Shown: positions 17,707 through 22,147 of the stretch, piece after piece
How positions within the stretch are numbered: position 1 is the stretch's first letter
How the letters are laid out: each line of letters begins with the position of its first letter
Assembly: GCA_034044135.1 (NCBI GenBank)
Contig: CP139021.1
Coordinates: 7,540,001 to 7,604,000 of the forward strand
Direction: 5' to 3'
From: Flammeovirgaceae bacterium SG7u.111
Lineage (GTDB): Bacteria > Bacteroidota > Bacteroidia > Cytophagales > Flammeovirgaceae
Length of the DNA stretch: 64,000 nt
Translations under genes and position numbers: made by a program
Notes under the pieces: generated by a model
The model's database searches: none
Told to the model about the DNA's origin: nothing
What the model saw: the letters and a program-made list of their open reading frames with translations, nothing else

Positions 17707-18342
17707 TTATTTGTTAGGCTGAGGGGTCATCCTTAGGTAAGGTTTTATCTCGGTAAAGCCTTTTGGAAATTTGGCTGGTATTTCTGACGTGGGGATAGAT
17801 GGAACTACCACGCAGTCATCGCCATCGTTCCAGTTAGCTGGCGTGGCCACTTGGTGGTAAGCCGTCAACTGAAGTGAGTCGATTACCCTCAAAAGCTCAT
17901 CGAAGTTCCTGCCCGTAGAAGCTGGATAAGTGATGGTCAGTTTGATTTTTTTATCTGCCCCTATCACAAATACAGAGCGAACGGTAAGGTTACTGCTCGC
18001 GTTTGGATGGATCATGTCATAAAGGTTAGATACCTTTTTGTCCTCATCTGCAATGATCGGGAAGTTCATTGAGGTTTTTTGGGTCTCGTTGATGTCGCCA
18101 ATCCAGCCTTTATGCGATTCTAAGCCATCTACGCTAAGTGCCATTACCTTCACATTTCTTTTTTCAAACTCAGCTTTGAGCTTGGCCACTGTACCTAATT
18201 CAGTAGTACAAACTGGTGTATAATCGGCAGGGTGAGAAAAAAGAACCCCCCAGCTATCGCCTAGCCACTCGTGAAAATTGATAGTGCCTTCGGTAGTTTC
18301 GGCGGTGAAATTTGGAGCTTCATCTCCTAATCTTAAACTCAT
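17707..18342 (-). CDS. 1-Cys (Prx6-type) peroxiredoxin
   Basis: This 211-residue protein fits the Prx6 group by length. The peroxidatic motif PADYTPVCTTE is near residue 45, and an Arg follows in the usual region (LTVRSVFVI). It reduces hydrogen peroxide and organic peroxides. A second Cys occurs at about 176 (DDCVVV), but it is not a typical resolving position. It lies 57 bases after the moeZ-like gene and before the operon's terminator, so it is probably read with the cysteine genes. That makes sense for sulfur or redox supply, though co-regulation is inferred. Confidence 0.92.
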   Translation of the reverse strand: MSLRLGDEAPNFTAETTEGTINFHEWLGDSWGVLFSHPADYTPVCTTELGTVAKLKAEFEKRNVKVMALSVDGLESHKGWIGDINETQKTSMNFPIIADEDKKVSNLYDMIHPNASSNLTVRSVFVIGADKKIKLTITYPASTGRNFDELLRVIDSLQLTAYHQVATPANWNDGDDCVVVPSIPTSEIPAKFPKGFTEIKPYLRMTPQPNK

Positions 18343-18399: not shown

Positions 18400-19563
18400 T
18401 TAATACTTCGCCAAAGAAGTGTCTACTTCATCAGCATAGGCTAAAATGCCGCCTTTGAGATTGTAAAGATTTTTGAAGCCAAATTTCTTTTCCAATACCT
18501 CAATTGCATCGGCACTTCGCTTGCCACTTCGGCAGTGGACAACTACTTTCTTGTCAGATGAAATCTTATTGAACTGGTTTTCTATAGAATCTAGCGGAAT
18601 AAGTTCGCCACCAATGTTGGCAATATCATATTCGTACGGCTCTCTTACGTCAATCAGTTGGAAGTCCGCCTGTTGGCTTTGCATTTCTGCCAGCTCTTTC
18701 ACGGTTACTTCTTTTACATCTTTGTCCTTGTCCCCATCTGGGTTAATTCCGCAGAACTGCTGGTAATCTATCAGCTCTTTCAATGTTGGATTATCGCCAG
18801 TCAATGGGTTTTCAGGATCTTTGTAAACCTTCAGCGTTCGGGTGGTAAAAGTAGCAGCATCGAACAAGAAGAGCCTGCCAGAAAGCGGATCGCCTACACC
18901 TGAAATAACCTTGATTACTTCGTTTGCTTGTAAGCTACCTACTATGCCCGGAAGTACGCCTATTACGCCACCTTCGGCGCAGCTTGGTACCAAGCCCGGA
19001 GGCGGTGGCTCTGGGAACAAATCGCGGTAGTTCGGCCCAGTTGCCCCTGTCTCGTCCGTATAGTTAAATACCGAAACTTGCCCTTCAAAGCGGTAAATAG
19101 AGGCATATACGTTGGTTTTCCCCAACAGTACACAGGCATCATTTACCAAGTAGCGGGTAGGGAAGTTATCTGTTCCGTCGGCTACCAAATCGTAATCTTT
19201 AATGATGTCGAGCGCATTTGCAGAAGTAAGCATCGTATTGTGAACAATGATTTCTACATGAGGATTTAGTCCTTTTATGCGTTCTTTAGCAGCCTCAACT
19301 TTAGGTTTTCCTACATCATCTACTGTAAAGAGAACTTGCCTTTGCAAGTTGCTATCATCTACCACATCGAAGTCAACTACCCCGATGGTGCCGACCCCTG
19401 CTGCTGCTAAATAGAGCAAAAGAGGGCTTCCAAGGCCACCTGTTCCCACTACCAATACTTTAGCAGCTTTGAGCTTGCGCTGCCCTTCTATGTTGAAGTC
19501 TGGTATGATAAGGTGTCGGCTATATCTTTCTAGCTCAGCTTTGCTGAATTGGATATTTTCCAT
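18400..19563 (-). CDS. moeZ: MoeZ-like adenylyltransferase/sulfurtransferase (ThiF-rhodanese fusion)
   Basis: This 387-residue protein joins an E1-like ThiF/MoeB domain (about 1-250, with GTGGLGSPLLLYLAAAGVG binding ATP) to a C-terminal rhodanese domain (about 285-387) with active-site Cys in HCRSGKRS. The MoeB zinc-site motif is replaced by NYRDLFPEPPPPG, and LIDYQQFCG follows, both as in mycobacterial MoeZ. It should adenylate the C-terminus of the neighbouring CysO and replace AMP with sulfur to give a thiocarboxylate. Fourth gene of the leader-controlled operon, between cysO and the peroxiredoxin. Confidence 0.9.
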   Translation of the reverse strand: MENIQFSKAELERYSRHLIIPDFNIEGQRKLKAAKVLVVGTGGLGSPLLLYLAAAGVGTIGVVDFDVVDDSNLQRQVLFTVDDVGKPKVEAAKERIKGLNPHVEIIVHNTMLTSANALDIIKDYDLVADGTDNFPTRYLVNDACVLLGKTNVYASIYRFEGQVSVFNYTDETGATGPNYRDLFPEPPPPGLVPSCAEGGVIGVLPGIVGSLQANEVIKVISGVGDPLSGRLFLFDAATFTTRTLKVYKDPENPLTGDNPTLKELIDYQQFCGINPDGDKDKDVKEVTVKELAEMQSQQADFQLIDVREPYEYDIANIGGELIPLDSIENQFNKISSDKKVVVHCRSGKRSADAIEVLEKKFGFKNLYNLKGGILAYADEVDTSLAKY

Positions 19564-19599: not shown

Positions 19600-19878
19600 T
19601 TACCTAATACCCCCAGCTATGGCTGGAATGATACTTACCGTAGCCGATTCAGCCACTGCAGTATGCTCGTTGTCTAGGGCTTTGATGTCCTCGTCACCTA
19701 CATAGATTCTCAAGAACTTCCTGATATTTCCCTCTCCGTCGTAGATGTGCTGGCGAATGCCTGGGAACTGCGCAGCCAAATCTTCCACTATTGCAGAAAT
19801 ATTTTCACCCGATACCTCAATTGTTCCCTGATTTTCGGTGTATTTCCTTAGGGGAGTGGGAATGATGATTTTTGCCAT
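19600..19878 (-). CDS. cysO: CysO-like ubiquitin-fold sulfur carrier protein with extra C-terminal dipeptide
   Basis: This 92-residue MoaD/ThiS-fold protein contains motifs matching mycobacterial CysO (ISAIVEDLAAQFPGIR, IYVGDEDI, VSIIPAIAGG). CysO as remembered ends in Gly-Gly. Here Ile-Arg follows the Gly-Gly, so a protease must remove two residues before the carrier can be activated. The JAMM protease encoded next door is the obvious candidate, as for other sulfur carriers with tails after Gly-Gly. After activation it should carry sulfide as a thiocarboxylate to O-phosphoserine or O-acetylserine on CysM. Confidence 0.9.
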   Translation of the reverse strand: MAKIIIPTPLRKYTENQGTIEVSGENISAIVEDLAAQFPGIRQHIYDGEGNIRKFLRIYVGDEDIKALDNEHTAVAESATVSIIPAIAGGIR

Positions 19879-19928: not shown

Positions 19929-20345
19929 TTATTCTTCAATGCTTTCTTCGGCGAATTTCTCTGTTTCGTCCAGTGCCCATGAGCGTGTGTCGGCTACTTC
20001 CCCTTTCATTACTGAGATGATAATGTACGAGAAAAATGGCTGGGCAAACTTTAGGTCATGCTCCGAAGGAATAGCTGGATGGTCGGGGTGCGAATGATAA
20101 ATACCCAACAAGCCCAAATTGTTTTCGGCAGCGTACCTTTCTGCTTTCATATAGTCCATTGGGCTCACTTCAAATCTCCTTCGCTGGTCGCCGTCTTTGC
20201 TATTGGTCACCTCTTTTGCTACGTCAATTATCCTTACCTCCCCTTCATCGTTTCCATAAAAAAAACCAACACATTCGTAGGGATAGGTGCTTTCAGCATG
20301 AGCTTGCATTTGCTGCAAAGCTTCTTTATTTATCTGTAAGTTCAT
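19929..20345 (-). CDS. mec: Mec-like JAMM metalloprotease for CysO
   Basis: This 138-residue MPN/JAB-domain protein carries the full zinc protease motif: Glu in YPYECVGFFYG and then HSHPDHPAIPSEHD (H-x-H-x7-S-x2-D). In the actinobacterial pathway Mec releases cysteine from the CysO-cysteine adduct. Here it may also trim the Ile-Arg tail from CysO. It sits between cysM and cysO, 20 bases after cysM. Confidence 0.9.
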   Translation of the reverse strand: MNLQINKEALQQMQAHAESTYPYECVGFFYGNDEGEVRIIDVAKEVTNSKDGDQRRRFEVSPMDYMKAERYAAENNLGLLGIYHSHPDHPAIPSEHDLKFAQPFFSYIIISVMKGEVADTRSWALDETEKFAEESIEE

Positions 20346-20365: not shown

Positions 20366-21298
20366 TTAAAAAATACTGTTGATCACCTCGCTGTACTTTG
20401 CCGCATTGTCGGGGAACATAGTCACCACCACCCCGTTTTCAATAGAGTTCGCTACTTTGATAGCCCCTGCCAAGTTAGCCGCAGCCGAAGGGCTCAGCAA
20501 AATACCTTCTTCCCTTGCCGTCGCTTTTATAAGGTCGTAAGCGTCCATGGTGTCTATTCCAAGGTTATCATCTGCAAGATCCTTGTCATAAATTTTTGGG
20601 ACAATAGCTGTTTCCAAATGCTTCCATCCTTCCATGCCGTGCATAGGCGAATCGGGCTGAAACGAAATCAATGTGATATCAGGGTTCAATTCTTTGAGCC
20701 TTCTGCCTGTCCCGGTAAAAGTACCCGTAGTTCCCAAGCCTGTTACAAAATGGGTGATTTGTCCGTTGGTCTGGCGGAATATTTCAGGTCCAGTGGTATG
20801 GTAATGCGCTTGCCAGTTGCTGTTGTTAGCATATTGGTCAGCGTAAAAATACTTGTCGGGCTCTTGGGTAAAAAGCTGCTTTGCATAAGTTTGTGAGCCA
20901 TCTGTGCCTTCATAAGGCGAGGTATAAATAATTTTTGCCCCGTAAGCTTTCAAAATAGTTTTCCTTTCTTCCGAAGCATTTTCAGGAAGGCAAAGTGTTA
21001 CAGGAATTCCCAACGAAGCGCCGATAGAAGCATAAGCAATTCCAGTGTTTCCGCTGGTAGCGTCAAGGAGTTCCTTGCCAGGAGTGAGCAGTCCGTTGTT
21101 CACCGCATCTTTAATGATGTTGTAAGCGGGGCGGGCTTTTACGCTCTCACCTATTTGTTGCCATTCAAGTTTGGCAAATAGCTGTACGCCAGGCTTGTTG
21201 AACACTTTGGTGATGGGGAGTAAAGGAGTGTTGCCTATAAACTGACCTAGCTCCCCTATTCTTTTTTTGTAATCTACTTTTTCTTGTTCGGCAATCAT
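20366..21298 (-). CDS. cysM: CysM-type cysteine synthase
   Basis: This 310-residue PLP enzyme is of fold type II. The PLP lysine is in GESVKARPA, the phosphate-binding loop is TSGNTGIAYA, and GLGTTGTFTGTGRRLKE is also typical. Its neighbours (mec, cysO, moeZ) mark it as the CysO-dependent form, which uses thiocarboxylated CysO as sulfur donor and usually O-phosphoserine as acceptor; the acceptor here is not proven. It is the first structural gene after the leader peptide and attenuator. Confidence 0.93.
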   Translation of the reverse strand: MIAEQEKVDYKKRIGELGQFIGNTPLLPITKVFNKPGVQLFAKLEWQQIGESVKARPAYNIIKDAVNNGLLTPGKELLDATSGNTGIAYASIGASLGIPVTLCLPENASEERKTILKAYGAKIIYTSPYEGTDGSQTYAKQLFTQEPDKYFYADQYANNSNWQAHYHTTGPEIFRQTNGQITHFVTGLGTTGTFTGTGRRLKELNPDITLISFQPDSPMHGMEGWKHLETAIVPKIYDKDLADDNLGIDTMDAYDLIKATAREEGILLSPSAAANLAGAIKVANSIENGVVVTMFPDNAAKYSEVINSIF

Positions 21299-21340
21299 TA
21301 TTTATGTTTTTTTAAGGTAATCCTTTGGTTAAAAAGCAAT

Positions 21341-21370
21341 AAAAAAGGCCTTTCCAGTTACGGAAAGACC
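21341..21370 (-). terminator. Attenuator terminator in the cysM leader
   Basis: On the minus strand GGTCTTTCC pairs with GGAAAGGCC (9 pairs, one U-G) over a 6-base loop, followed by six U. It lies 39 bases after the leader ORF's stop and 42 bases before the cysM start. A terminator between a leader ORF and its operon is the hallmark of attenuation. Confidence 0.85.
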
Positions 21371-21439
21371 CTATATATGCTTTTGCTAAATTTGTAGCTC
21401 TTTGTATGGTTAAGCACAATGGATGGGAATCTCTTTCCG
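21362..21439 (-). promoter_or_regulatory. Candidate antiterminator pairing of the Cys leader
   Basis: The leader segment CGGAAAGA (21439-21432, codons 30-32) is the exact complement of TCTTTCCG at 21368-21361, the 5' arm and first loop base of the terminator. The two structures exclude each other. A second pairing, ATGGGAA (21502-21496) with TTCCCAT (21429-21423), could compete. Pairing is read from sequence; the switch is inference. Confidence 0.6.
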
Positions 21440-21526
21440 GTATGGAGAGGGCGCACTGCAACAGCAACAACAACATGCGGCGGCTGCTTTGGCATTTCCC
21501 ATAAGATTCATCACTGATTTTACCAT
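21410..21526 (-). CDS. Cys-rich leader peptide (38 residues, six consecutive Cys)
   Basis: ATG at 21526 opens 38 codons ending in TAA at 21412-21410. Codons 18-23 are all Cys (three TGT, TGC, TGT, TGC), preceded by Ala-rich codons 14-17. Codon 37 is Cys again. The ORF is far too short and skewed to be an enzyme and sits directly before a terminator and the cysM operon. Ribosome pausing at the Cys run when charged tRNA-Cys is scarce would free the antiterminator arm. An A-rich stretch precedes the ATG, as is usual for Bacteroidota initiation. I could not find a good promoter match upstream. Confidence 0.8.
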   Translation of the reverse strand: MVKSVMNLMGNAKAAAACCCCCCSAPSPYRKEIPIHCA

Positions 21527-21724
21527 TGCTTTTGTATCTTGAACCAAATTCAGTTACATAAACCGAAGTAGTCCTCTTTGAGTTCTCAAAAAGAATACTT
21601 TTTTCATAAATATAAAAATTAACCCAAGTTTTTAATGATTTATTATCATTGAAGGCGGATTATTAGAGTATTTGCTAGCAAATTGGTTTTCGATTTAGAC
21701 TTTTTTAAAGTACGCATATTATAA

Positions 21725-22147
21725 ATGAAAATAATACAAGAATCGGTTCGGCTGCCAGCCTTCCCACGAGGCTTCCATTTGGTCACTTCTGCCATAGAGC
21801 AGCGGCTTTCCCAAATGAAGCACATAAAGGCGGGGATAGCTCAAATATTTATCCAACATACCTCGGCGAGCCTTACGCTCAACGAAAATGCTGACCCCAC
21901 GGTGAGAGATGATTTTGAGAGCCATTTTAATGCAATGGTTCCTGAAAATGCCCCTTATTACAGGCATACCTACGAAGGCCCTGACGACATGCCCGCCCAT
22001 ATCAAATCATCTTTGCTGGGTAGCTCGGTTTCTGTACCCATAACCAATGGTCGCTTTAACCTAGGCACTTGGCAAGGGATCTACCTCTGCGAGCACCGTG
22101 ATTATGCTTCTTCGCGCAAGCTAATTATTACAGTGATGGGGGAGTGA
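21725..22147 (+). CDS. YjbQ-family (UPF0047) protein
   Basis: This 140-residue protein carries the family motifs: GIAQIFIQHTSASLTLNEN, YRHTYEGPDDMPAHIKSSL and GTWQGIYLCEHRD. YjbQ proteins have a weak thiamine-phosphate synthase activity and a conserved metal/phosphate pocket, and their real role is unclear. It is divergent from the cysteine leader transcript, with about 200 bases between them. Confidence 0.93.
   Translation: MKIIQESVRLPAFPRGFHLVTSAIEQRLSQMKHIKAGIAQIFIQHTSASLTLNENADPTVRDDFESHFNAMVPENAPYYRHTYEGPDDMPAHIKSSLLGSSVSVPITNGRFNLGTWQGIYLCEHRDYASSRKLIITVMGE

Follow-up and report, generated by a model that had tools for sequence, protein, structure and literature searches.

A poly-cysteine leader with competing RNA arms, a probable cysteine attenuator before a CysO-type operon in Bacteroidota

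Attenuators of the trp type, known from the E. coli trp and his operons among others, combine leader codons for the end product, a terminator and an alternative pairing. To our knowledge, little has been described of how Bacteroidota control cysteine synthesis and sulfate assimilation. An RNA of this phylum, Bacteroid-trp, precedes trp genes and encodes Trp codons. It is listed as a cis-regulatory candidate of Bacteroidetes (RF01692; PMC2864571). For Flavobacterium psychrophilum, likewise a member of Bacteroidota, the authors of another study report strong clues of attenuation by leader peptides located before amino-acid operons (PMC9723704).

Cysteine leaders have been described in other phyla. 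The motif uORFC-8-2, located before cysS in Rhodobacterales, has been predicted to act as a ribosome-mediated attenuator; it combines an intrinsic terminator with a uORF that holds tandem Cys codons (PMC8632094). Poly-Cys attenuation with a terminator thus has a precedent, which the initial annotation of the present locus had not included. In Actinobacteria, Cys leaders without terminators were reported by Seliverstov et al. (2005; PMC1262725). The poly-Cys ORFs of M. smegmatis (Canestrari et al., 2020) are described in citing papers as responding to cysteine and acting on translation (PMC9031893, PMC13236596).

Here, we analyzed a 64,000-nucleotide stretch of the genome of Flammeovirgaceae bacterium SG7u.111 (the window), in which a poly-Cys leader precedes a CysM-type gene rather than cysS. 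The annotated features are confirmed, and comparison with relatives supports their reading well: as judged from sequence, the leader very probably works by ribosome-mediated attenuation of transcription, with charged tRNA-Cys as the signal sensed. With trp-type attenuators it shares a run of end-product codons, a terminator whose 5' arm has an alternative partner, and biosynthetic genes behind; unlike those, its family lacks a detectable protector helix. uORFC-8-2 belongs to Alphaproteobacteria and cysS and carries two Cys codons in its first stem, whereas the leaders of the relatives studied here carry runs of 3–8 Cys and precede biosynthetic operons. Actinobacterial poly-Cys leaders likewise place a Cys-codon run before cys operons; the mycobacterial ones are described as translational and without a conserved terminator, whereas the present family has an intrinsic terminator and a predicted antiterminator that changes along with it. 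Bacteroid-trp concerns another amino acid, and the window's leader matches no Rfam family. The initial annotation knew of no poly-Cys leader described in Bacteroidota, and a search of openly readable literature, with subscription papers and supplements outside its scope, returned no description of a cysteine attenuator in this phylum.

Leader, terminator and operon in the window

The features of the locus are collected in Table 1. Translation of the minus strand gave the ORF and its Cys codons exactly as initially annotated, with the peptide MVKSVMNLMGNAKAAAACCCCCCSAPSPYRKEIPIHCA followed by the stop codon. Pfam, NCBIfam and Rfam yielded no family for the leader, and the number of Rfam matches at gathering score in the whole window was zero. 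A divergent yjbQ-family gene lies upstream of the leader.

Table 1. Coordinates of the leader, its predicted RNA elements and the genes behind it, in window positions
Feature	Position	Strand	Basis or remark
Weak candidate -7 promoter element, TGAATTTG	21545..21552	-	5 of the 6 fixed letters of TANNTTTG; low confidence, another 5-of-6 site exists
Leader ORF	21410..21526	-	38 codons + stop; same place in relatives; putative, from sequence
Six successive Cys codons (18-23), presumed sensor	21458..21475	-	Recurrent peptide feature in relatives
Antiterminator arm A, CGGAAAGA	21432..21439	-	Within ORF, 18 nt past last Cys codon; predicted
CCC extending arm A against GGG 21371-21369	21425..21427	-	Predicted antiterminator, fold of 21449-21361
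Shared arm B	21361..21371	-	Terminator 5' arm and partner of A
Intrinsic terminator hairpin	21345..21372	-	Fold z -4.8; 3' arm C = 21355-21346
U-run of terminator	21341..21346	-	Read from sequence
CysM-type cysteine synthase (PALP), first structural gene	20366..21298	-	PF00291 cut-off met
JAB/JAMM protease, Mec-like by position, HSHPDHPAIPSEHD motif	19929..20345	-	PF14464 cut-off met
ThiS-family sulfur carrier, CysO-like, C-terminus ...PAIAGGIR	19600..19878	-	PF02597 cut-off met
MoeZ/MoeB-like ThiF adenylyltransferase with rhodanese domain	18400..19563	-	Pfam/NCBIfam
Peroxiredoxin with 1-Cys-type C-terminal domain, last gene of presumed operon	17707..18342	-	Pfam/NCBIfam

The terminator begins about 35 bases beyond the leader's stop codon. 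It had been annotated as a 9-bp hairpin with a U-run (21370-21341) and is present, its stem now refined to 9–11 pairs depending on the stretch folded. The fold of the hairpin (-15.3 kcal/mol) was equalled by none of 200 shuffles. A simple terminator scan of positions 20800-22000 found this site and no other; since the shuffled region averages 1.2 sites, the scan alone proves nothing.

The exact complementarity claimed for arm A was reproduced as well: its CGGAAAGA pairs fully with TCTTTCCG (21368-21361) in the 5' arm of the terminator. When 21449-21361 is folded, i.e., with the terminator's 3' arm still unmade, the A:B helix is predicted to form (-19.3 kcal/mol, z -2.9) and gains a CCC/GGG step. 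Against dinucleotide shuffles, the window's 8-bp match reaches p=0.056 and, taken singly, is therefore only suggestive.

All five proteins of the operon pass Pfam cut-offs, and the gaps within the cluster 3' of cysM measure 20–57 bases. The best NCBIfam match of CysM is cysM itself (TIGR01138, 317 bits, under its cut-off of 394), and the protein scores below the curated NCBIfam cut-offs of all cysteine synthase models matched. The carrier's best solved-structure match is 3dwg_C, from what we take to be the CysM-CysO complex, so the label "CysO-type" given earlier is fair. From its CysM-type, JAB, CysO-like and MoeZ-like genes, the operon is predicted to make the amino acid that the leader would sense. 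As a side observation, among 22 CysO-like homologues, found with a C-terminal pattern in which as many as 4 additional residues were permitted, 1–3 residues follow the GG in 19, and the GG is terminal in 3. QbsD/QbsE provide a precedent for protease trimming of a carrier C-terminus; given the residues past GG, the neighboring JAB protease may need to trim first.

Recurrence and arm complementarity in relatives

A generic search for five successive Cys codons in 99 genomes was abandoned: most of the 28 hits examined looked like TGY repeats due to chance or like alternative frames of genes, and searches based on gene context were therefore used. CysM of the window's type is uncommon at E<=1e-90, occurring in 9/291 genomes of the order and 16/395 of the class, the window's genome included in both counts. 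Its closest named relatives are from Saprospiraceae, Chitinophagaceae and Puia. The set of 28 CysM loci comprises 24 from order and class, including the window's, and four named ones (two Saprospiraceae, one Chitinophagaceae and one Puia); two Salegentibacter hits (L050 and L051, 40–41% identity, no Cys segment) were excluded as another type.

The initial annotation had proposed comparing such upstream regions and would have counted a lack of conservation of the Cys run or of the alternative pairing as refuting. Its idea survived this test: the Cys run, the terminator and an arm pair that is changed yet complementary all recur, and do so before a second kind of gene as well. At 20 of the 28 loci, the 550 nt upstream of CysM contain a poly-Cys leader. 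Another long ORF directly precedes cysM in 7 of the other 8, and at three of the eight (L185, L187 and L191) the leader is found at the operon head, before an earlier gene. This gene encodes a NirA-like reductase in L185 and L187; in L191, two tandem leaders precede a peroxiredoxin-like gene, assigned by eye from its resemblance to the window's. No leader was found in L080, L092 and L094, extended upstream DNA included, and two loci (L082 and L093) are cut off by contig ends. Tandem leaders occur in L008, L075, L079, L086 and the L087/L191 locus.

Reading both strands of the 28 loci, about 118 kb in all, yielded 21 short ORFs that start with ATG and hold at least 4 successive Cys. Every one of them lies upstream and on the sense strand, and a terminator lies 35–95 nt beyond 20 of the 21. 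A control set of 18 further CysK/CysM-like loci from this family, half of which come from one genus, holds no such ORF. The Cys run and terminator at this place are not due to chance. In total, 25 leader-terminator units were defined over 21 loci, with 52–89 nt from the last Cys to the terminator and an ATG start in 22; each unit was assigned the most stable terminator behind its leader, a single choice used throughout.

The pairing test matched the stretch after the Cys run with the terminator's 5' arm and loop, against shuffles. Over the 25 units, A:B pairing exceeds the shuffles (Fisher p=1.9e-10), with p<=0.05 in 11 and the remaining 14 individually non-significant. Six further, hand-picked units gave p<=0.05 in two cases (L191a, 0.016; L016, 0.012); the values for L187, L191b, L185 and the leader before the sulfite reductase of the window's own genome were 0.09, 0.28, 0.38 and 0.56. 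Because units are related, the combined p-values are too small, and arms were therefore also swapped between units. Arms from different lineages share no register, which is why a swap test was used rather than a covariance count on a fixed alignment. Three near-duplicates (L056, L077 and L011) and a unit with a poor terminator (L087) were dropped before the swap and protector tests. In the 21 units left, own arms scored 406 vs 305 +/- 17 for swapped ones, and not one of the 20,000 permutations scored as high. Own arms ranked first in 7 of the 21 units, and the window's own ranked 7 of 21.

Between lineages, the arm pairs differ and are still complementary, for example GGAAAGGC/GCCTTTCC-like, GGTGGAG/CTCCACC, GGCAGGTGG/CCACCTGCC and TTGTATCGG/CCGATACAA. 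Such variation is what compensatory change would look like. In the 14 units at p<0.1, arm A starts 8–23 nt past the last Cys and ends 1–21 nt before the stop codon. The initial annotation had cautioned that ribosome coverage fits only roughly at this locus. That concern is eased, as the window's distances, 18 nt after the Cys run and 19 nt before the stop, fall inside the family range. At 19 nt before the stop, the window's arm A ends at the rim of a terminating ribosome, which counts against the reading.

A protector (1:2) helix is not detectable as a feature of the family (Fisher p=0.07 over 21 units, p<=0.05 in two), and the window's best candidate has 4 bp (p=0.83). A downstream alternative partner of arm A was sought across the units and not found. 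Three arms (A, B and C) are supported by the sequences, and the protector would be the fourth.

Upstream of the leaders, the Bacteroidota -7 promoter element has the consensus TANNTTTG. A perfect copy within 70 nt precedes 11 of 22 leader ATGs, vs 1.3 expected; the distance from its end to the ATG is 5–25 nt in 10 of these and 55 nt in the remaining one. The mycobacterial poly-Cys attenuators, for comparison, are leaderless, with the ATG at the very start of the transcript. Matches with at least 5 of the 6 letters are common by chance (17 of 22 leaders vs 13.6 expected). The window's leader has no perfect element within 70 nt upstream, only 5-of-6 matches.

Proposed mechanism and competing explanations

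If cysteine is low, the ribosome would stall on the Cys run and leave arm A free just past its footprint. Arm A would then pair with B once B is transcribed, the terminator would come too late, and polymerase would read through into the cysM operon. With ample cysteine, the ribosome would cross arm A to the stop codon, B would pair with C, and transcription would end near 21341. Stalling, coupling of ribosome and polymerase, and a kinetic win of A:B over B:C are steps that we infer from the arrangement of the parts. The anatomy of the leader itself recurs, and its complementarity is kept despite sequence change.

Folding agrees with part of this scheme. The footprint sizes used for ribosome coverage are general knowledge. 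For a ribosome on the Cys run with C unmade, at least 4 A:B pairs are predicted in 22 of the 25 units, and one of the three exceptions has A inside the assumed footprint; this test is partly circular, because A:B had been chosen as the best helix. For a ribosome at the stop codon, the terminator folds in 25/25. In the full-length transcript, the terminator is the predicted fold in 24/25 units, even with a stalled ribosome. Since the terminator is the more stable full-length fold, the switch would have to be kinetic, with A:B forming first. The design of classical attenuation, as which the locus had been annotated, therefore holds for the recurring Cys run, terminator and competing arms; it does not extend to a protector helix or to a stalled state in which the full-length RNA avoids the terminator.

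The alternative that fares best, though an improbable one, is that cysteine acts at translation or via Rho, as proposed for mycobacterial poly-Cys ORFs, and that the hairpin is a bystander. The M. smegmatis leaders are cited as cysteine-responsive attenuators of translation (PMC9031893, PMC13236596), and the mycobacterial leaders have no conserved terminator hairpins (PMC1262725). Within the window's own order, too, metY leaders carry a Cys run near their end, and 18 of the 19 with at least 4 successive Cys have no terminator 35–95 nt behind. At cysM, however, a U-tailed terminator follows 20 of the 21 comparable leaders at limited spacing, and its 5' arm retains a partner in or near the ORF while both change, which speaks against this alternative.

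A second alternative is that the ORF encodes a real small protein, e.g., a metal- or redox-binding poly-Cys peptide, and that the terminator merely separates it from cysM. We consider this very unlikely. The ORF is indeed open in many relatives, most of them with an ATG start (22/25 units, as given above), but the peptide drifts outside the Cys run. In three close pairs, nonsynonymous vs synonymous codon changes number 6 vs 2 (L055/L056), 4 vs 4 (L010/L011) and 1 vs 2 (L076/L077), with no change of a Cys-run codon in any. The peptide also has no Pfam or NCBIfam match, and a separate gene would need no arm that matches a terminator.

Finally, it is hardly credible that the Cys runs are TGY repeats arisen by chance, with terminators that serve the genes upstream. 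Although a five-codon TGY run occurs in 92 of the 99 genomes of the generic search, and most of the 28 hits examined there did not look like leaders, at the cysM loci all 21 ORFs lie upstream in sense orientation, with none elsewhere in the roughly 118 kb and none in the 18 control loci.

As transcription attenuators, these leaders would supply a cysteine-responsive switch with readable parts and would connect cysteine starvation with the CysO-type pathway in bacteria other than Actinobacteria. Since control by ribosome position requires ribosome and polymerase to stay in step, they would also offer a direct, simple test of transcription-translation coupling in the phylum.

Leaders before other sulfur genes

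The second gene context is the NirA-like reductase. The best NCBIfam match of the one that heads the L185 operon reaches 238 bits against a cut-off of 523; reduction of sulfite rather than nitrite is inferred because the reductase shares an operon with cysM. NirA-like matches occur in 48/198 genomes of the class, the window's included, and leaders were read at the best 30 loci of these matches. Short ORFs with at least 3 Cys, often together with Met, lie upstream of the reductase in 14 of these 30, although the leader in L196 lies some 1.5 kb away. These loci hold 19 leaders, 18 of them with a terminator. In the 18 units, A:B pairing gave p=5.4e-10, with p<=0.05 in 10; the units are not fully independent, because some locus pairs share a genus and L193, a unit of a CysM operon in the first set, forms the operon head of L081.

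In the window's genome, a leader (MNNNF...CSCCCACCC...) with a terminator precedes a NirA-like reductase (L223, 6955000-6961000), and this leader has no A:B match (p=0.56). Tandem Cys or Cys/Met leaders stand before the reductase in L201, L202, L204, L210 and L213, with a terminator of their own in 9/10. The Met codons in these tandem leaders suggest joint sensing of methionine and cysteine. Short ORFs with (F/Y)EYCCCC at the end or inside were seen in four reductase loci (L204 3613, L206 3619, L207 3619 and L209 3622); they sit away from the reductase start, and no terminator was detected with them.

A third context is O-acetylhomoserine sulfhydrylase (metY), a gene found in 75/118 genomes of the order. 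Among the best 30 metY loci (L125-L154), 29 have a SAM-I riboswitch and 23 a Cys-run leader within 700 nt, the run mostly at the very end. The riboswitch comes first, then the poly-Cys leader, then metY (e.g., L005 1294-1521, L125-L154); the window's genome has one metY leader of this SAM + Cys type (L005). By the rule used for cysM, 1 of 19 metY leaders has a terminator, and a few weak hairpins lie elsewhere; the same mechanism is therefore not claimed for this class. Also in L223 of the window's genome, a SAM riboswitch and a leader reading MKKVKN...CCCMCCCC before its stop codon precede a 393-residue ORF.

On balance, we lean towards a wide cysteine-attenuation regulon in Bacteroidota that would replace a protein regulator or stand beside one and would take in the cysM-cysO, sulfite reductase and SAM-I/metY classes, making a larger regulon around the window's attenuator. 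Its first class would consist of attenuators of the Cys or Cys/Met type with three arms, in some loci arranged in tandem and once before a peroxiredoxin-headed operon, and its second of a SAM-I riboswitch and then a terminal poly-Cys leader before metY. If so, tight coupling of transcription and translation in the phylum would be implied, and in the metY class a single transcript would read the supply of both SAM and cysteine.

Leaders of related appearance were also sampled in other phyla. At ten Chloroflexota-type cysM loci, nested hairpins of very high stability follow short Cys-rich leaders, for example MYHTCVCCCLKRGV, and often a hairpin begins at the Cys codons (L013, L014, L018, L023, L025, L029-L031, L034 and L035). 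In a Gammaproteobacteria bin (L016, listed above among the hand-picked units), the sampled leader has a 12-bp A:B match.
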